Source: Pyrodictiaceae archaeon
Lineage (GTDB): Archaea > Thermoproteota > Thermoprotei_A > Sulfolobales > WANQ01
Assembly: GCA_015521735.1 (NCBI GenBank)
Contig: WANQ01000011.1
Coordinates: 46,231 to 110,230, forward strand
Direction of reading: 5' to 3'
Length of the DNA stretch: 64,000 bases
Shown: positions 1 through 9,989 of the stretch, piece by piece
How the letters are laid out: each line of letters starts with the position of its first letter
Position numbering within the stretch: position 1 is the stretch's first letter
Made by a program: the position numbers and the translations under genes
Notes under the pieces: generated by a model
What the model was told of the DNA's origin: nothing
Database searches by the model: none
The model's input: only the letters and a program-made list of their open reading frames with translations

Positions 1-2
1 TT

Positions 3-926
3 TGTTACTCATCTTATTTAGAGGTTAAAGAAATATACAATGTTGCCAAAGAAGGAATACGAATCAGAAATCATTGTATGTATATTAATGGTCAAGCATT
101 AGAAGTAAATGGATATATCGGCCTTGTCCTAAAGTCAAAGATCCTTGCTGATCCTTATGTAATAGTTCCAATGAGTATCGAAATCACTTGGAGTTCAGGA
201 GACAATGAAAAAATCGAACAAAGGATAGTACTCTTTAGACCCCATATAGTGGTTCATCATATTCCGTCTACAATAAATGTTAAGGTTAAAGATCATAGAT
301 TGGAGATTAGTAATAGAATAGTTATTAAAAACGAGGGTTATGCCACAGCTATAGTAAAGTTTGAGGTTGACCCAAGTAGTGACGTTAAGTTAACAAAACC
401 AGAAGAAATTGAGGAATATGTTAAAAGCTTTTGCGAGCATCTATCTCAAAAACTAAATAGAGTCAAGAAGGAGTTTCCACAATACTCCAATATCGTAAGT
501 AGTTTTGAAGAATTGATGATAAAATTTGCAAAAGGAACATTTACCTTAACTGAGGATTTTCTGTCACATACCAGAGAGGTGTTTAATGCATTACTAGATG
601 CTATGGAGAAAGATGAAGTATTTGCACGTGCACTTATTTCAGCTATAGTAGGAGCATATATTGCTGCTATAAACATATTGACAGAATTTAGAGCTTTACT
701 TGAATACCTTAGATCTATAGCTAAAAATAGAGTATTATTGGTAAATGCTATGCACATGCTTGAACTTCAACCCGGATCAAATCTCTTGAAAGGCTATATT
801 CGAGTGCACGACCTTGCAGGAAACGTTTATAGTCCTATACACGTTGAGCTTCAAATAAACGTTAACAATCCCGAAAGCATTAAGGTGCCAGTATATGAAC
901 TATTTCAGTGGGGTGAGCAACCATAG
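3..926 (+). CDS. hypothetical protein, probably truncated by the left window edge
   Basis: The reading frame stays open upstream of the Met at 78 to the window start (CYSSYLEVKEIYNVAKEG...). No family recognised. Confidence 0.6.
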   Translation, partial: CYSSYLEVKEIYNVAKEGIRIRNHCMYINGQALEVNGYIGLVLKSKILADPYVIVPMSIEITWSSGDNEKIEQRIVLFRPHIVVHHIPSTINVKVKDHRLEISNRIVIKNEGYATAIVKFEVDPSSDVKLTKPEEIEEYVKSFCEHLSQKLNRVKKEFPQYSNIVSSFEELMIKFAKGTFTLTEDFLSHTREVFNALLDAMEKDEVFARALISAIVGAYIAAINILTEFRALLEYLRSIAKNRVLLVNAMHMLELQPGSNLLKGYIRVHDLAGNVYSPIHVELQINVNNPESIKVPVYELFQWGEQP

Positions 927-1916
927 CAACTGAACTGTTAACTAGTGTTATTTATCGTCAACTTGCTGAGAAGACTCTTAATCTGACCGCCAAAATATTA
1001 ACGAATGTACTTAAAGAAATCAAAAGCGATATAGAAATTCTTGATCAAGAACTTGTATTTCAATGTCCACAAAACACAGGCAGGCTTGACCTCATTTTTC
1101 AATTAAAGAAAGGGATTATCTCTATAAGAAAGAAGAGAAAATTCAATATACCAGCACTACGCAATGTCTACGTCAAACCTGTAATATCATTTAGAGATGT
1201 GACAAACGAGAGTATCCGCTTTATTTCTCGTGAGAGCTTTGAACTTATTTATGGGAAGCTAAGTGAGGATGTTCCCTACATTCTTGGAATAGAATTTGAT
1301 ATTGAGAATCCTAATTTTATAGATCGCTTAGTACATCGAAAGGTACTAGAAGACTCCATTGAGGATCAAAGAAGATACTGGCTCCACGCTCAGTTAAGGT
1401 TTGTGAAAGGATTAGAAAAAGTGTTTTCGAATATTAGAATAAATGACCTTAATTTTGATGTTACAGTTGCAGTTCATGAAGATGTACGGGTATCGATACC
1501 GTCAACATTTAAAAAAGAACTTGAACTCGTTGTACAATGGCTTAGGGAGACACATAGAGAGAAAACAACGGTTATCCTTAGAACATTTAAAGCTTCTTAG
1601 GAGGAGGGACTCAACTAAGAGAGATGTTTTAGAGCTACTGAAAAGATTACAAGATTTATTCCTTCCTATAGTCTTCAAGAAATTTATTGAAGTAAGAGAT
1701 GATTTCCGATACCATGATTGTAAAAGAGGTACAGATTACTATTCAGCACCATTTCCTACATGGCCTAAATTCATGATAATAACCACAAGAACTGATCTAT
1801 CTATAGATAAACCAGCAGCCGTAGGCTATTTAGACTTCCACTATAAGCAGTTTAGATCAGAAATAGAACGATTATTTAGTAAATATTATGGTCGAAGATT
1901 TAGTAAGCAATTATAA
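917..1916 (+). pseudogene. hypothetical protein split by a frameshift near 1560-1600 and lacking a canonical start
   Basis: Frame 2 is open from 917 to 1600 with no ATG/GTG/TTG before 1199. Coding continues in frame 3 (ERKQRLSLEHLKLLRRRDSTKRDVLELLKRL...) to 1916. Confidence 0.5.
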
Positions 1917-2099
1917 TTATTTCATCATAATATATATATCGGAGTAATTGAACCTCTCCTTATTGCCGACTTAACTCTTAAGCTAGGCTTTTAACCATTA
2001 GCTTTACGACAACTTAGTACACCCAGTACTGTTACGACCACAGCTATAAGATCTTATCAAATGAATGGTATAATATCATGCAAACTACAGGTCTACACT

Positions 2100-2125
2100 A
2101 TCTACTGTCTACGTAGATAGTAGAT
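2100..2125. promoter_or_regulatory. 26-bp near-perfect palindrome upstream of a wHTH gene, candidate operator
   Basis: ATCTACTGTCTACGTAGATAGTAGAT is self-complementary except for one mismatched pair, and lies ~37 bp upstream of 2162. Confidence 0.6.
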
Positions 2126-2161
2126 TCTAGCTAATTAGTCTAGGTTATAGATACGGTATTC

Positions 2162-2443
2162 GTGTTTCGTATGCCGAAGAGGGCTTTCAACGGTGTATTG
2201 AAGGTCTTAGCATATTTTGCTGATAAGGTAGGCGAAGAGGTAACAATGTATCAGATACAAAGAGAACTAGGTATGAGATACGATACACTTGCAAGAGCAG
2301 TCGAAGTACTAAAGAACGTAGGATTCCTAGAAGAAAGAATAGACCCTGGACCTCCTGCTCGTAGATTAGTTAGGCTAACGGAGAAAGGTCGGCAAGCAGC
2401 ACAATATGCGAGGGAACTACTTAGGCTAGCTGGAATATTATAG
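2162..2443 (+). CDS. small winged-helix transcriptional regulator
   Basis: 93 aa; wHTH pattern with C-terminal RRLVRLTEKGRQAAQYARELL. A paralog lies at 7816-8089. Confidence 0.75.
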   Translation: MFRMPKRAFNGVLKVLAYFADKVGEEVTMYQIQRELGMRYDTLARAVEVLKNVGFLEERIDPGPPARRLVRLTEKGRQAAQYARELLRLAGIL

Positions 2444-2483
2444 GGTAAGCACACTTCAATGATGCCATGAGGGCTTAGAATTC

Positions 2484-3152
2484 ATGGTTATTGATAAAGG
2501 TGCTGTATGCATACTTACAATGATATTCACTATAACCATTATGAATGCCTTAGCTTACTGTGATCGGGAGAAGTGCTGTACATACTTTAATAACTATATA
2601 CGCGTATGTATTGGCTGTGCGTCTAAAATACTTTACCAAGGTCTAAGAATTACATTTTATGCACTCGTAAAACAATACATATCATTTCTATTAATGTTTA
2701 ACGCAACATATATATTTATTAGCGCTTTAGCTAGCCTGGTTTTCAATGCATCAGAGAGTGAAGTAAAAGTTGTTTCATTACTTTTAAGCGCTTTATGTAG
2801 CTCGATTTACGTGTCCCGTGATGTTATACTTAATAAGCTCAAAGGTCTTAGGAAGGGTAGGATTCGCTGGATCTCCTGGTTTACATTACTACATTTTTCT
2901 TGGCTATTACCTGTAGTCTTAATTGCCTATAGAATCTCAACGGATCCTAGTTTAGGTTCTCTAGCAATGTCTTTTCTAATATTACTGATATTAGTATACA
3001 TGTTCCTAGCCGTTGAACACTATCGTAATTTGTATAAGACTAGAGCACTGACATGCTATTACATAGGGAAATCACAAATTAAACGTAAACCTATAATAGT
3101 CTTATACCTTGTATTAGGCGCTATCTCTATTCTTGCGGCAATCTGTCGCTAA
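2484..3152 (+). CDS. integral membrane protein, unknown function
   Basis: 222 aa with several hydrophobic segments, immediately downstream of the wHTH gene. Confidence 0.6.
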   Translation: MVIDKGAVCILTMIFTITIMNALAYCDREKCCTYFNNYIRVCIGCASKILYQGLRITFYALVKQYISFLLMFNATYIFISALASLVFNASESEVKVVSLLLSALCSSIYVSRDVILNKLKGLRKGRIRWISWFTLLHFSWLLPVVLIAYRISTDPSLGSLAMSFLILLILVYMFLAVEHYRNLYKTRALTCYYIGKSQIKRKPIIVLYLVLGAISILAAICR

Positions 3153-3856
3153 TAGATATTGTTAGTTTAGTAAAGGGTCTCACCTTAATAGTTACCTTGT
3201 TGAATAGGAATATGAAGTATTTGAGCTATAATATTTTAGCCTCTAAGTGCCTGCTGGATTAGCTATAACTGAGATCATGTAGCTTTATAATTAATTTCAA
3301 ACATTCTTCAATCCAGACTGTGTTCGGACTCCTCTTGGGTTGTCATTAAGGGGTGCTTGGGGGTAACTTTCCTACCTTAGCTTATGCAGGGTAAACATCT
3401 ACTCCAACGCAAAATGGGTATAGGTAATCAACTACGCTGGGAACTACTATTCACCCATGGGAAACTAGTGGGTTCACGGCATGTAGTTGACGGCTACGCA
3501 TAGTTTCCTGTTAAAAGCACCCTATCTCTATTAGGGGCACGGAATTGAAGTGTACGGATGCCTCAATCATGGGCTTACTTGAGTACATAGAGCTGAGGAT
3601 ACAGGAGAAGGCCAGAGAACTCAGAATACCCGAGGAGAAGATAAGACAACTAGTAATGGAAATAGAGAAGATCAGGATAAGGATAAGAGACCAAGGATTC
3701 CACGAACTAGAAGAGAGCTTAGGACTTTAACCTAAGTAATTCATAGCTCATTTTCTTCAAATCTTTTGTTTTGTAATAACTATGTTCTTATACCATAGTG
3801 AATAATGAATCATAAATGGTTAAAGGCACTTTTGTCTGACCATATGAGTAATTGTG

Positions 3857-3889
3857 GTAGTAGGTATGTAACATTTATATACCTACTAC
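3857..3889. promoter_or_regulatory. 33-bp inverted repeat spanning a TATA-like element
   Basis: GTAGTAGGTAT-11 nt-ATACCTACTAC, perfect 11-bp arms; TTTATATA at the spacer/right-arm junction; 32 bp upstream of the GTG start at 3922. Confidence 0.7.
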
Positions 3890-3921
3890 TGTAATCACTT
3901 ACACAGACAGAGAGTGGGAGC

Positions 3922-5697
3922 GTGAACCCACACAAAGCACCGCGTCAGTCGGAAACCCTTATGGTACTCGAATACTACCGACGATTAGGATTGTATCCAT
4001 TAAAGTTAGAGGAAATACAACTACATACAGGATTAAATCCTGATAGAACTCGTAGGCTTCTTAAGGATCTAGAAAAGAAAGGTTTAGTTATAATCAAAAA
4101 TAACGATACAGTAGAACTCACAGTAAAGGGTATAAGAAGTGCAAATGAAGTATTTATTAGAGTCTTTGGCAGAACAATAGCTAAAGACGATTTAAATAAA
4201 CCGGTTGATGAGCTATTAAAAGAATTCAGAAAACGTCTAATACTTAGATCTAACAAACCAGTAAGATCTCTCGATTCATGGTTAAACATACCTAATATTA
4301 TTACTACATTTAAACCAACTAGCCTGAGTGTCAGTGAAGCAATAATAAGAATGTTTAGTAGCGAAGGAAAACTACTAATAGGTGACTCGTGGGCCCTAGG
4401 GGCAGATCTAGAACATGCTGTCGTACGTCTTGAGAGGCAAGAGGCGGGCGTCTACGCGCACTACGCTAAGGATTTATCATGGGTTATAAGAAACCACCGG
4501 CTCCTCGCAGTAACATTACCACTATGGTATACTGGAAAACCAGTAAGCTATAACGCACTACGGGAGGCAATAGGTGCTAGCTGGTATTGGCCCAACTTGA
4601 AGAGAACCTCTAAGGATCTAGGATTCTACATAGATGAGGCGGCAAGTCACAACCTATTACTTAAACAATCATTAGGCTATGAGATAATATTAACACCAGT
4701 AGATACTGGTGTAGTGAAGCTTATAGAGAAAATATTAAACGTGCTGGAAAGCCCAACAATGTACATAGCACAACGCTGGCCTACGAGAGTACTAGAAGCA
4801 GCAGTGTATAGTTGCATAATAAGAAATCTAGTATCATTGGATGAATTACTCAATAATCCACCAGGAAATAGTACCCTTGCAGAAATATATAGCTACATGA
4901 GTCCTCAAGACTATAGGAGGTACGTGGAAAGAGCTGTTAAAACACTCAGGGAGATAGGCATAGTCGAAGAAATAAATGGATACCTAATCCCTACACGTGT
5001 ACTACGATACGAGCCAGCACTAAAAGATGTATTAAGAAAATATGAAGAAAACATAGTACTACAATTACTTAGAGCCCTTGTAGCAATAAGACCTTATCCA
5101 ACAATAGACGATATAGCTAGGACTATGAAGGTAAACAAGTACTCTCTGCAAAACACCTTACGTATGCTTCATGAGCGCGGAATAATAATAATGACCGTAA
5201 ATGGGGTTCTCACTCCATATCACGTAGCATATTACACTATGGATCCTCTCCCAAGAGACCAGAAGAAGAACTATGGAAATGAAGCGTTGATAAGAGTATC
5301 ATCACCGATACTCGCATTATACTTTTCAGAGATAAAGAAAACTATAAGTGAAGGCGATTGGGAAACCATAGTCAACTTGCTCGAGGAACTAGCTAAGAAC
5401 CGTAGAGTAGATGTAAATGATCTTCCATCACGCATAGTACTAAAACTGTCAAGACTATTTAACTTAATGGAGGACTTCAAGATAGTAAGAATACATGATA
5501 GCGAAATAGAATTGAATGATGATAAATCCCTTAACAATATCCTATTAGTCTTAAGGGACATACCCATAAGGGAATACGTGGACATCGCAAAAAACATTGA
5601 GAAATACCAAGTAAGGCGAAAGATAAACGAAGAAATATCAACGCTCAAGCAATTAATAGTTGAAAGTTACAAGAGGGGAGTACGGCCTCAAGCCTAG
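3922..5697 (+). CDS. multi-winged-helix protein, unknown function
   Basis: 591 aa; wHTH-like segments at the N-terminus (LEEIQLHTGLNPDRTRRLLKDLEKKGLVII) and around residue 395 (IDDIARTMKVNKYSLQNTLRMLHERGII). Confidence 0.7.
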   Translation: MNPHKAPRQSETLMVLEYYRRLGLYPLKLEEIQLHTGLNPDRTRRLLKDLEKKGLVIIKNNDTVELTVKGIRSANEVFIRVFGRTIAKDDLNKPVDELLKEFRKRLILRSNKPVRSLDSWLNIPNIITTFKPTSLSVSEAIIRMFSSEGKLLIGDSWALGADLEHAVVRLERQEAGVYAHYAKDLSWVIRNHRLLAVTLPLWYTGKPVSYNALREAIGASWYWPNLKRTSKDLGFYIDEAASHNLLLKQSLGYEIILTPVDTGVVKLIEKILNVLESPTMYIAQRWPTRVLEAAVYSCIIRNLVSLDELLNNPPGNSTLAEIYSYMSPQDYRRYVERAVKTLREIGIVEEINGYLIPTRVLRYEPALKDVLRKYEENIVLQLLRALVAIRPYPTIDDIARTMKVNKYSLQNTLRMLHERGIIIMTVNGVLTPYHVAYYTMDPLPRDQKKNYGNEALIRVSSPILALYFSEIKKTISEGDWETIVNLLEELAKNRRVDVNDLPSRIVLKLSRLFNLMEDFKIVRIHDSEIELNDDKSLNNILLVLRDIPIREYVDIAKNIEKYQVRRKINEEISTLKQLIVESYKRGVRPQA

Positions 5698-5719
5698 GAG
5701 ACCTTGGAGGTGGCTAGTA

Positions 5720-6493
5720 ATGTCGAATAACATACTCTTCGCATTCATCGACGAAAGCGGTCAACCATATCAGTTAGATGAAGGACCTTATGTTTTAGCG
5801 GCTGCAACAGTAGCCCCATATAATCTTGTTAGAGTTGAGGGCAACATACGTAGCTACCTAACTCGGTGGAGTCATAGACTTGGCAGGGATATACCAGAGA
5901 TACATGCTAGAGAGATTATTCAAGGAGAATCACCTCCGCCTAGAACTCTTCAGCAGAATCCTAGAAGGATAAACTGGAGAAGAGTAGATCCAAGAATAAG
6001 GCAAGAAGTTATAGATAGGTTCTCAGAGCTAATAGCTTCTCAACCTATTCTTCTAAACATAGTGGTTGTTGAAAAACGTCCTGGTGTAAGAATTCATTCA
6101 CAGTATGGTGTGAGAACACGAGCTTTAACGTATCTAATTGAGAGAGTACTTATGTCTGGAAGGACTCCCAGGATCCTATTATTATCTATTGATAGTGCTG
6201 CATTACGCCAAGATACACAGCTTCAAATAGAGGTATTGAACGCATTAAGTAGAGTTAGAGTAAAACATCAAGCCAGGGTTTTCATAAGCTTTGAGGACTC
6301 CGAGAACAGCCCCATAATCCAAATAGCTGATGTCGTAGCCTATATTATAAGGAATGTAAGGATGCACCGATACACCATAGGCAGAATAAATATTGAGAAC
6401 GCTTTTCTCAATATTGAGCGTCGTATAAGAAGATGTCCTGGCACCAACAGGTATGAAAGATGTGGACTAAAAGTGTGGACAATAACACAATGA
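5720..6493 (+). CDS. DUF3800 domain protein (RNase H-like fold family)
   Basis: N-terminal FAFIDESG, HAREI, and C-terminal IQIADVVAYIIRN match the DUF3800 pattern. ATG at 5720 follows GGAGG; the ORF track start at 5660 is probably too long. Confidence 0.75.
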   Translation: MSNNILFAFIDESGQPYQLDEGPYVLAAATVAPYNLVRVEGNIRSYLTRWSHRLGRDIPEIHAREIIQGESPPPRTLQQNPRRINWRRVDPRIRQEVIDRFSELIASQPILLNIVVVEKRPGVRIHSQYGVRTRALTYLIERVLMSGRTPRILLLSIDSAALRQDTQLQIEVLNALSRVRVKHQARVFISFEDSENSPIIQIADVVAYIIRNVRMHRYTIGRINIENAFLNIERRIRRCPGTNRYERCGLKVWTITQ

Positions 6494-6508
6494 TGTACAA
6501 ACATGAAA

Positions 6509-6586
6509 CCCTCGGAGTCCGCCCCCAGAAGGGGGCTACCTCCGAGGGCGCCTCGGGTCCGCCCCTCTAGGGGGCTACCCCGAGGC
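6509..6586. repeat. two tandem GC-rich stem-loops with the same internal-loop motif (candidate structured RNA)
   Basis: 6509-6548: CCCTCGGAG-TCC-GCCCCC-AGAA-GGGGGC-TAC-CTCCGAGGG. 6550-6586: GCCTCGGG-TCC-GCCCCT-CTA-GGGGGC-TAC-CCCGAGGC. Confidence 0.85.
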
Positions 6587-6919
6587 TTAAGGACAGTGTT
6601 TCCCGTATATAATATGGAGACTCAGGTATTTAAGTGCTGTGCGCACAGCTGTGATAACATTCAATTGTACAGTACAGTTTTATTTCTTTCATAGTGTTTC
6701 ATGATTCCATATAAAACACTTAGGTATAATGTAGACCTCCATATCATTTAACATATGCTTCAAAGAGCCCAAGTGCAAGAGAGCGGCTTAGAAACTATAT
6801 CAAACACCTTGTGAAGAATGCGCCAAAGAATTACAAGACACCAAAGAAGCTTTGGTTCAAGTCAACAAGAGTTATAGCAGGACCTGAATCCTTCTTTAAA
6901 AGAACATCATAGCCTTAGA

Positions 6920-7819
6920 TCACAACCTACATATGTCATGTACGTGACGCTCTATTTCGCGTATCAGATTTTCTTCTATTATCTTAACGTATTGTTTAAG
7001 CTCTTTAAGGAAAGATTCAGCTCTTCCATAGAATATTGGAAGTAGTGCTGGAAACAGGCAACGGCTCCATATTTCATCCATAGTCTTCTCGTCTAAATAG
7101 ACATATATGAAAATAAATGTATAATTCTCTATCCTTGGAAATACTATAATGACATCAGTAATTAGACGTGAATCCTGATGCTTCTTAATATAGGGTAATC
7201 TCCATAACGGTGTTATTGATTTAAAATGTAATGATTCTATAGCTTTTTCCCCTCCAAAAGCCTGTATTTTAGATGTGTCTTCTAACTTTCTTAATAGATA
7301 CTTATTTTCATCGATGTCGAGAGCTATAGGAGAACCAATTATATTAATATTACGTAGATATTCACGGGAAAGGCCTACAGCTATACATTGATCTACAGCT
7401 TTACTAAGACTGAAATCAACTATCTCTTTAAACTCGTAAAGCTTCTCTTTTATCTTACATGGTAAGATAATTGTGACAAAGGGGCGTAAGTATACTGGTT
7501 TTAGCGATACCTTAATTTCAACGTTATGTCTACCCCTTATTGGAACTATCTTAGCCTCATACTTTACTGACAACATAACAGGTACTATTGATTCTAGTAT
7601 CAAAATGTACAAGAAGAATAATATTGATGAAGCCATCACTATTATGAGTAGGGAAAGAGGGTATCGTACTTGAAACCATACTAATATTAGGCCTATTAGC
7701 GAAGCTGTAAATACCGAGTACCATGCATAGTACATGGTTCTACCATGATTTAATATGTCTTCGATCTCGTCTATTACTATAATTTTATCTTGCATTATGA
7801 TTACCTTACTTTGAATCAC
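6920..7819 (-). CDS. membrane protein with two N-terminal TM helices, unknown function
   Basis: 299 aa; hydrophobic hairpin near residues 30-85. GTG start overlaps the TGA of the upstream wHTH reading frame (GTGA). Confidence 0.6.
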   Translation of the reverse strand: MIQSKVIIMQDKIIVIDEIEDILNHGRTMYYAWYSVFTASLIGLILVWFQVRYPLSLLIIVMASSILFFLYILILESIVPVMLSVKYEAKIVPIRGRHNVEIKVSLKPVYLRPFVTIILPCKIKEKLYEFKEIVDFSLSKAVDQCIAVGLSREYLRNINIIGSPIALDIDENKYLLRKLEDTSKIQAFGGEKAIESLHFKSITPLWRLPYIKKHQDSRLITDVIIVFPRIENYTFIFIYVYLDEKTMDEIWSRCLFPALLPIFYGRAESFLKELKQYVKIIEENLIREIERHVHDICRL

Positions 7820-8089
7820 AATAAACCAGCTAGCTTTAGGAGCTCTCTTGCGTGTTGTGCTGCTTGTCTACCCTTCTCGGTCAACTTTATCAGCCGGCGA
7901 GCTGGTGGCCCGGGATCATAGTTTTCTTCAACGAAGCCGTTTTTTCAGTATGTCTACGGCTCTCATTACAGTTCTGTAATTGAGGTTTGTTCCTCTACTT
8001 ATTGATAGTAGTGTTGATTCACCAGCTTCCAGTAAGTATGCTAGAACTCTTAGAGGCCCGTTGAGTCCTCTTGCATTTTCTCTAGACAA
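7816..8089 (-). pseudogene. frameshifted paralog of the 2162-2443 wHTH regulator
   Basis: Minus strand: TTG start at 8089, (M)SRENARGLNGPLRVLAYLLEAGE...RAVDILK, then after a 1-nt shift at the T6/A6 run (7940-7945) ...NGFVEENYDPGPPARRLIKLTEKGRQAAQHARELLKLAGLL*. Close match to the intact copy; length 274 nt = 3x91+1. Confidence 0.8.
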
Positions 8090-8143
8090 GCAATACACCA
8101 CTGTACTCTATACAATGTACTCTTAATAGTGTAGTCGGTACTA

Positions 8144-8156
8144 TGTACACAGTACA
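8144..8156. promoter_or_regulatory. inverted repeat TGTAC-ACA-GTACA upstream of the frameshifted wHTH gene, candidate operator
   Basis: Perfect 5-bp arms. Minus-strand TACTGTGTACATAGTA resembles TACTGTCTACGTAGATAGTA upstream of the paralog. Confidence 0.45.
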
Positions 8157-8458
8157 CAAAGCTTAAAGCACTATAATAGTAGTATAAGGTCTAAATAGCT
8201 TCTTCTGATTAAGTTGACGTAATGACGTAAATACAATAATAGATGCCTAATGACGTTATACTGTATTATTAGTAGTGAGAGAGTTACTGGAATAACGATG
8301 GCCTCCACGTGACCCTTGCTTAGCATCTAAAGATTATCTCTTAGCGTTGTTATGAGTCTTGCTTTTCTAATACTTGTATACTTGCTGTGCTTTATCTAGG
8401 ATTAAGTCTCTCCGCTTAACTATAGTGTGTGCTAGTGAGATGGAGTGTAGGAGTGTTT

Positions 8459-9745
8459 TCACGGTGTTTTCGTGTTTTCCAGCTGTTTTTCTAGTGTTTT
8501 AAGGTATTTGGGGTAGGCTTCGTCGGCTTCTCCTAGTAGGTCTTCGTATCTTGCTTCGCTTACGCGTAGTTCTCCGAGCCTTGACTGTATGAATCTTGCC
8601 ACTTCTCTGCTCACGGCTTTGATCATTAGCCTCCAGGCCGTCTTCCTCATGTATTTGGGTAGTACTAAGCCGTGCCTCTTAGCGTACTTTGTTACCTGGT
8701 TACGGTTAATGTGCCGTGGCGCTGTTTTCTCAATAAGCTCTAGTGTTTCGTTTGAGAAGTATATCCATTCGCAGGGCTTACTACCCTCCCTCAAACCCAT
8801 GTAGTATCTGCAGAACCCTTGGTCCTCGAAGCATACCAGCCTCCTGGTAACTATGCCTACTCCTGGTATCTCAACAACCTCGTTCGGGCTCCAGGTCTCC
8901 GCCATCTTTAAAACATGTTCGAACCTGGCACCTGACTCCAGCATAACCCTGTATATCGTGTAGTAGATACTGTGTCTCTGCTCTAGGAACTCTAGTGTCT
9001 TCTTAACATCCTCTAAGCTTATCTGGTAGGGCCTAACATCCAACCTATAACTTCTGCTGGGCACGACCTCCATTATCCAGCCAAAGGTCTCTGGGCTGAT
9101 TCTACGCTTGTAGTATAGGTACTGGATGTAGTGTCTGAAGATGTTTCTTAGCCACTTGTTGGGGTGATTCACCACGTAGTCTATGAGCTCCTCGCTAAGC
9201 TCCTTGCCTTCGAGGTATTTCTTGAATAGTGATTTATAGTACTTTAGTGTCTCGGGGCCTCTTACTTTTCTACGCTTCTTACGCTCTCGTAGAAATATCT
9301 CGAAGTCCTGGGTCCACTTCATCTTTACTCCGGTGAGGCTGATCCCGAGTATTCTGCGTAGGTCTTCCCTGAAGTTCTCGACCGTGAACCTGAGTATTAG
9401 TTGTCTGAGGTAGGGGTCTCGTGCTGCTACTCCCAGTATTTCCAGTACTATCGCATAGTCTATTGCACCGTTATTGTCTAGTACTCCCAGCGCTCTGAGC
9501 TTCTCCTCGGTGCCTGCTATCTTCTCGAACTCTTCTGGCTCTAGGGCCTCGAGTATCCTCTTGAGATTATCATCTGTTAGCCTTACCTGTCTTTTAAGCA
9601 GTCTATAGAGCGTCGAGGATGAGACACCTAGTATTTTCCTGGCTTCTTTCTCCCCGCGCGTTGATACGAGGTACCTGAGTAGCCTGTACCGTAGCTCATC
9701 TCCTATCCTAGAGGGATCGATGGCCTCATACCACTTCTTCAGCAC
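8459..9745 (-). CDS. archaeal SSV-type tyrosine recombinase/integrase
   Basis: 428 aa; N-terminal HTH (ARKILGVSSSTLYRLLKR), SGARFEHVLKM (Arg), RKTAWRLM, C-terminal SEARYEDLLGEADEAYPKYL (Tyr candidate). Adjacent to a tRNA 3' end. Confidence 0.85.
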   Translation of the reverse strand: MLKKWYEAIDPSRIGDELRYRLLRYLVSTRGEKEARKILGVSSSTLYRLLKRQVRLTDDNLKRILEALEPEEFEKIAGTEEKLRALGVLDNNGAIDYAIVLEILGVAARDPYLRQLILRFTVENFREDLRRILGISLTGVKMKWTQDFEIFLRERKKRRKVRGPETLKYYKSLFKKYLEGKELSEELIDYVVNHPNKWLRNIFRHYIQYLYYKRRISPETFGWIMEVVPSRSYRLDVRPYQISLEDVKKTLEFLEQRHSIYYTIYRVMLESGARFEHVLKMAETWSPNEVVEIPGVGIVTRRLVCFEDQGFCRYYMGLREGSKPCEWIYFSNETLELIEKTAPRHINRNQVTKYAKRHGLVLPKYMRKTAWRLMIKAVSREVARFIQSRLGELRVSEARYEDLLGEADEAYPKYLKTLEKQLENTKTP

Positions 9746-9914
9746 TGGCCACCCCTCTCGTGGAGAACAGTGTTATAAAACGTGTAATCACTTGAATAGA
9801 ACAATAACCACGGAACAGTGCATCGCAGACCTGATATACAGGGGTATATTGCATGGAAGCAATATGAACCATGCAATGAGGACTTCAGGACAAGTAGAAG
9901 TCTCAATTGTTTAG

Positions 9915-9989
9915 CGGGCCCGCGGGGATTTGAACCCCGGACCTCCGGCTCCGCAGGCCGGCGTCCTATCCGGGCTAGACGACGGGCCC
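9915..9989 (-). tRNA. tRNA-Arg (anticodon GCG)
   Basis: Full cloverleaf on the minus strand: GGGCCCG/CGGGCCC acceptor, CCGGC-CTGCGGA-GCCGG anticodon arm, CGGGG-TTCAAAT-CCCCG T arm, G discriminator. Confidence 0.95.

Follow-up and report, generated by a model that had tools for sequence, protein, structure and literature searches.

A pair of similar RNA hairpins beside archaeal DUF3800 genes, a candidate ligand of an RNase HII-like nuclease

Genes encoding DUF3800 proteins are widespread on plasmids, on phages, and in some CRISPR loci, and some are known to adjoin structured RNAs. Such RNAs were reportedly described in a motif survey of 2017 that PMC10910872 cites, and the Rfam families DUF3800-I (RF02969) and DUF3800-IX (RF02968) are, by name, further members of the group. 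What the Rfam families have in common with the locus described here is a small structured RNA adjoining a DUF3800 gene. DUF3800-VI (RF02915) also has two hairpins, but these are held within an outer stem and lie 5′ of the gene, whose strand they share; the RNA of our locus, in contrast, lies downstream, is probably on the opposite strand, and belongs to a set in which an outer stem is not general. DUF3800 proteins have been linked with noncoding RNAs (ncRNAs) and described as having an RNase H fold (PMC10910872). Those of Cas12a2 and VI-F CRISPR loci are ncRNA-linked nucleases of this fold with a rearranged active site (PMC10910872, PMC12669027); they are fused with TPR or lie beside Cas effectors, whereas the DUF3800 protein at our locus stands alone with a hairpin pair.

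Type III toxin-antitoxin systems pair a nuclease gene with a neighboring RNA built of repeated structural units, and they travel on mobile DNA (PMC5086642). Our locus resembles ToxIN, CptIN, and TenpIN in its mobile setting and in having a predicted nuclease gene beside a candidate RNA, the units of which number only two. However, the type III toxins are of the ToxN/CptN/TenpN type, whereas the protein here is a DUF3800 member with an RNase HII-like fold; the antitoxin RNAs are described as pseudoknot repeats, whereas ours are hairpins, two similar units per locus; and our RNA lies downstream of the gene with no terminator between. Because toxin fold, RNA position, and terminator all differ, we do not claim membership of type III.

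The locus lies in a 64,000-nt stretch of a Pyrodictiaceae archaeon (contig WANQ01000011.1, assembly GCA_015521735.1, positions 46,231 to 110,230), here called the window. A first-pass annotation of this DNA had proposed two consecutive hairpins at positions 6509 to 6586, and we confirmed both, with outer stems of 9 and 8 bp, a TCC/TAC internal loop, and an inner GC stem. Hairpin H1 (6509 to 6548) has the 9-bp outer stem, a 3×3 internal loop, a 6-bp inner stem, and the tetraloop UUCU (AGAA on the plus strand); H2 (6550 to 6586) has the 8-bp outer stem, a 3×3 internal loop, a 5-bp inner GC stem, and the pentaloop CUAGA. Both are provisionally assigned to the minus strand from evidence at the level of the family, and H2 is the first hairpin of the RNA when that strand is read. 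Their common internal loop is GUA/GGA on the minus strand, where it could form G·A, U·G, and A·G contacts. The double hairpin has a minimum free energy z score of −5.8 (−5.9 on the plus and −6.15 on the minus strand in a separate run), which none of 200 shuffled sequences equaled, and the region is the lowest-energy 80-nt segment among 6,392 in the 64 kb, below tRNA. GC content is 77% at the hairpins versus 38% across the window. The genome carries one copy of the double hairpin according to a copy search, and an exact-loop pattern scan of 59 genomes matched the window alone. Rfam searches of the site up to an E value of 10 returned only matches below cutoff, to unrelated families, and none of the Rfam DUF3800 models matched above its gathering cutoff in the window or in the archaeal tandem loci described below.

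H1 begins 16 nt past the end of a DUF3800 gene (5720 to 6493, plus strand), which encodes 257 amino acids from an ATG at 5720; a TTG at 5660 is a possible upstream start. The protein matches PF12686 with 45.4 bits (cutoff, 21), and a Pfam search listed DUF3800 alone, with no RNase_HII match. Its AlphaFold2 model is confident (pLDDT, 94.5), and Foldseek ranked human RNase H2 and archaeal RNase HII first among Protein Data Bank (PDB) entries (probability, 1.00; E value, ∼1e−4). Profile comparison with archaeal RNase HII gave a P value of 4.7e−5; in the alignment the DESG motif (D11-E12-S13-G14) faces DEAG, and D158 faces the next conserved catalytic-type Asp. Residues D11, S13, G14, E60, H62, E141, R142, and D158, as well as S194, Q201, D204, G249, and K251, are common to 21 DUF3800 homologues. 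From the model and these alignments we predict that the protein is an RNase HII-like nuclease with its conserved acidic residues intact. RNase HII/RNase H2A is the best fold match and has a similar first motif, but identity is ∼10 to 12% and the TM score 0.41 to 0.47, as for a separate family; the host genome also encodes its own RNase HII. RNase HII proper is marked by a DEAGRG motif and four acidic residues, the fourth of which has no assigned counterpart here. Sequence searches with the protein found nothing relevant among solved structures and no match among viral contigs, plasmids, and phages, and PADLOC returned weak matches only, to the candidate families PDC-S51 and PDC-M04A, which we set aside.

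Profile searches recovered DUF3800 proteins of this kind from 19 of 398 genomes searched in the phylum and from 11 of 214 in the order, with one and rarely two copies per genome, and on 14 further named contigs, including those of Pyrodictiaceae, Vulcanisaeta, Thorarchaeota, and Heimdallarchaeota. When we read the flanks and removed duplicates, about 16 archaeal loci had two adjacent hairpins 3′ of the DUF3800 stop codon; these span Thermoproteota to Asgard, and their proteins are 19 to 41% identical to that of the window. The 3′ flank had a z score below −3 for 11 of 21 DUF3800 genes (52%) versus 2.8% of 144 control open reading frames (ORFs) drawn from the same sequences (P = 3.8e−7). The 3′ pair is absent from the flanks that we read in L013, L032, L023, L040, and L044; L013 and L032 have an upstream hairpin instead, and L040 and L044 have an upstream DUF3800-VI RNA. 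Hairpin pairs of distant loci differ so much that some of the RNAs may not share a common origin. A covariance model searched against 211 genomes of the order, a kind of search that the first-pass annotation had suggested for archaeal genomes, detected DUF3800 loci only, and no hairpin away from DUF3800, at an E value of <0.01; weaker matches start at 0.018.

That annotation had also read the two stems as compensatory and the internal loop as invariant, and each point held in part. The two copies by themselves display little covariation, since their outer stems have CCTCGG in common and differ only in an end pair that is swapped (C-G/G-C) and an A-T pair that one of them has in addition; strong covariation came instead from other genomes, where, in an alignment of seven hairpins from the nearest relatives, two-sided pair changes exceeded those in nearly all shuffles. 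The TCC/TAC loop is the same in H1 and H2 and recurs with different stems in H1 of L031 and L060, but its conservation is confined to the nearest relatives; other loci have other loops, and we rejected it as a family-wide signature. The apical loop is mostly specific to the locus and used in both of its hairpins: CTCTGAGA occurs twice in L002, CGAGCCA in L016, CCTATAGGA in L031, and GTGCAG in L006. Loops of H1 and H2 are more similar within than between loci (P ∼ 1e−5), a comparison in which we selected the apical segments from the folds, with possible bias, and recent duplication could account for part of the similarity. We also considered an outer stem enclosing both hairpins; it is good in L002, L006, L031, and L035 and was rejected as a general feature (P, 0.04 to 0.06), being found in few archaeal loci only.

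The module is carried by an element of ∼52 kb integrated in tRNA-Arg(gcg), which extends from position 4393 of contig C11 to position 9959 of the window, positions 1 to 9959 of the window being its right end. The right attachment repeat (9894 to 9959) lies over the 3′ half of the tRNA-Arg gene (9914 to 9989, minus strand), and the left repeat (contig C11, 4393 to 4459; outside the window) is a copy of that half; the two are 99% identical across 66 bp. Since an archaeal integrase gene (8459 to 9745, minus strand; PF16795, E value of 9e−25) adjoins the tRNA and HerA/TraG-like and T2SSE-like ATPases are encoded inside, the element's content suggests an archaeal conjugative element. Other archaeal modules also have mobile neighbors, namely, a PF16795-family integrase in L006, L015, and L020 and a resolvase in L016.

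The hairpins might instead act on the plus strand as a 3′ untranslated region (UTR) element of the DUF3800 mRNA, serving as a stabilizer, a processing site, or an autoregulatory site bound by DUF3800, an explanation that we consider unlikely. They lie 16 nt past the stop codon, this adjacency is kept across archaea, and they are probably cotranscribed with the DUF3800 gene, whose start codon is 22 nt past the preceding ORF. However, across 17 hairpin units there are 36 G·U pairs on the minus strand versus 4 on the plus strand, and the minus strand folds more stably in 15 of the 17 (mean difference, 5.3 kcal/mol; P = 8e−4). The strand bias survives a composition control in which unpaired letters were shuffled (P = 0.003), a test in which the window taken by itself favors neither strand and L021 shows the opposite bias. 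The bulged A of GG-C...A-CC on the plus strand becomes a U·G pair on the minus strand, which changes to U-A between L031 and L060, and the inner helix is 100% paired in the minus-strand alignment and fully paired on that strand only. In addition, some homologues have their RNA upstream of the gene. Because stability and U·G pairs favor the minus strand across the 17 units, the RNA is probably read from that strand, toward the DUF3800 gene and convergent with it. A TATA-like sequence, ATTATATA (6606 to 6613, minus strand), which precedes the base of H2 by ∼26 nt, is a possible, if speculative, promoter of this RNA; TATA-like sequences are weakly enriched 20 to 28 nt before the hairpins in relatives (post hoc, P ∼ 0.01), the signal being nearly palindromic and the enrichment almost equal on the opposite strand.

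The next gene (6920 to 7819) is on the minus strand, which places the hairpins between convergent genes here and, likewise, at several other loci, as would suit a bidirectional terminator or insulator. This role seems to us improbable: an intrinsic terminator test at the site found no stem with a T-run, no U-tract follows H2 in the loci read, the next gene is codirectional in L017, L021, and L058, twin loops are kept within loci, and the covariance model (211 genomes, E < 0.01) did not find the hairpins at non-DUF3800 genes. Least credible of all, and very improbable in our judgment, is that they are subterminal DNA hairpins at the ends of a mobile element that uses DUF3800 as transposase or recombinase. 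The RNase H-type fold of DUF3800 and the location of modules on mobile DNA beside integrases or a resolvase would fit such a role, but the hairpins are single copy, genomes have one and rarely two DUF3800 genes, no matching hairpin lacks a DUF3800 gene (same search and cutoff), the strand bias points to RNA, and the carrier element has an integrase and attachment repeats of its own. The first-pass annotation's view of a conserved structured RNA, and not of a terminator or a mobile-element end, is supported by homologous structures tied to the DUF3800 family, and the protein binding that it expected is a plausible extension; what its ncRNA reading missed is the link to the DUF3800 gene, the known class of DUF3800 RNAs, and the probable minus strand.

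We therefore prefer, with rather better than even confidence, to regard the hairpins and the adjacent DUF3800 protein as the RNA and protein components of a single module. Most plausibly, the RNase HII-like nuclease has the two-hairpin RNA as its cognate ligand, be it an antitoxin, a substrate, or a cofactor. A small RNA would fold into two similar hairpins, each a putative docking site for the cognate DUF3800 protein, and might restrain the nuclease as type III antitoxin RNA does; alternatively, the RNA may be cut by the DUF3800 nuclease or serve as its cofactor or guide. By analogy, the module may operate in the manner of type III toxin-antitoxin systems, and a toxin or guide role is likewise suggested by analogy. 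Carriage on an integrated element would fit maintenance, competition, or defense cargo. A broader proposal, which we advance only tentatively, is that these loci represent an undescribed archaeal and bacterial ribonucleoprotein class, in which an RNase HII-like nuclease and a coevolving, separately transcribed control or guide RNA form a mobile defense or addiction module. The archaeal set is a compact, testable unit, with an RNase HII-like fold, a twin-hairpin RNA, and a predicted strand, and its loci supply natural cognate and noncognate protein/RNA pairs for specificity tests.

Because it has no Rfam match, lies downstream, and is probably on the other strand, the archaeal hairpin pair is best read as a so far undescribed variant of the DUF3800-linked RNAs. 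A search for DUF3800-I in 21 relatives gave no match and is uninformative, since the control genomes gave none either. DUF3800-VI occurs upstream of several other DUF3800 homologues in our set, from bacteria, phages, and archaea: it lies directly 5′ of the gene in two Pseudomonas phages (L052 and L054), two rhizobial plasmids (L050 and L051), and two archaea (L040 and L044). At these loci a second GC hairpin often lies between it and the start codon. In L048, L049, and L055, the DUF3800 gene is on enterobacterial plasmids of 3.6 to 5.7 kb with a conserved structured region upstream, for which Rfam returned no family above cutoff. Vulcanisaeta-type DUF3800 genes have a GC-rich hairpin upstream (∼2780 to 2885 in L013 and ∼1265 to 1375 in L032); an Rfam search gave no match to either, and their outer stems differ yet remain paired, while the inner GGCGGC/GCCGCC is kept. 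Another Vulcanisaeta DUF3800 gene (L014/L036) has a stop codon after 50 residues and looks broken.
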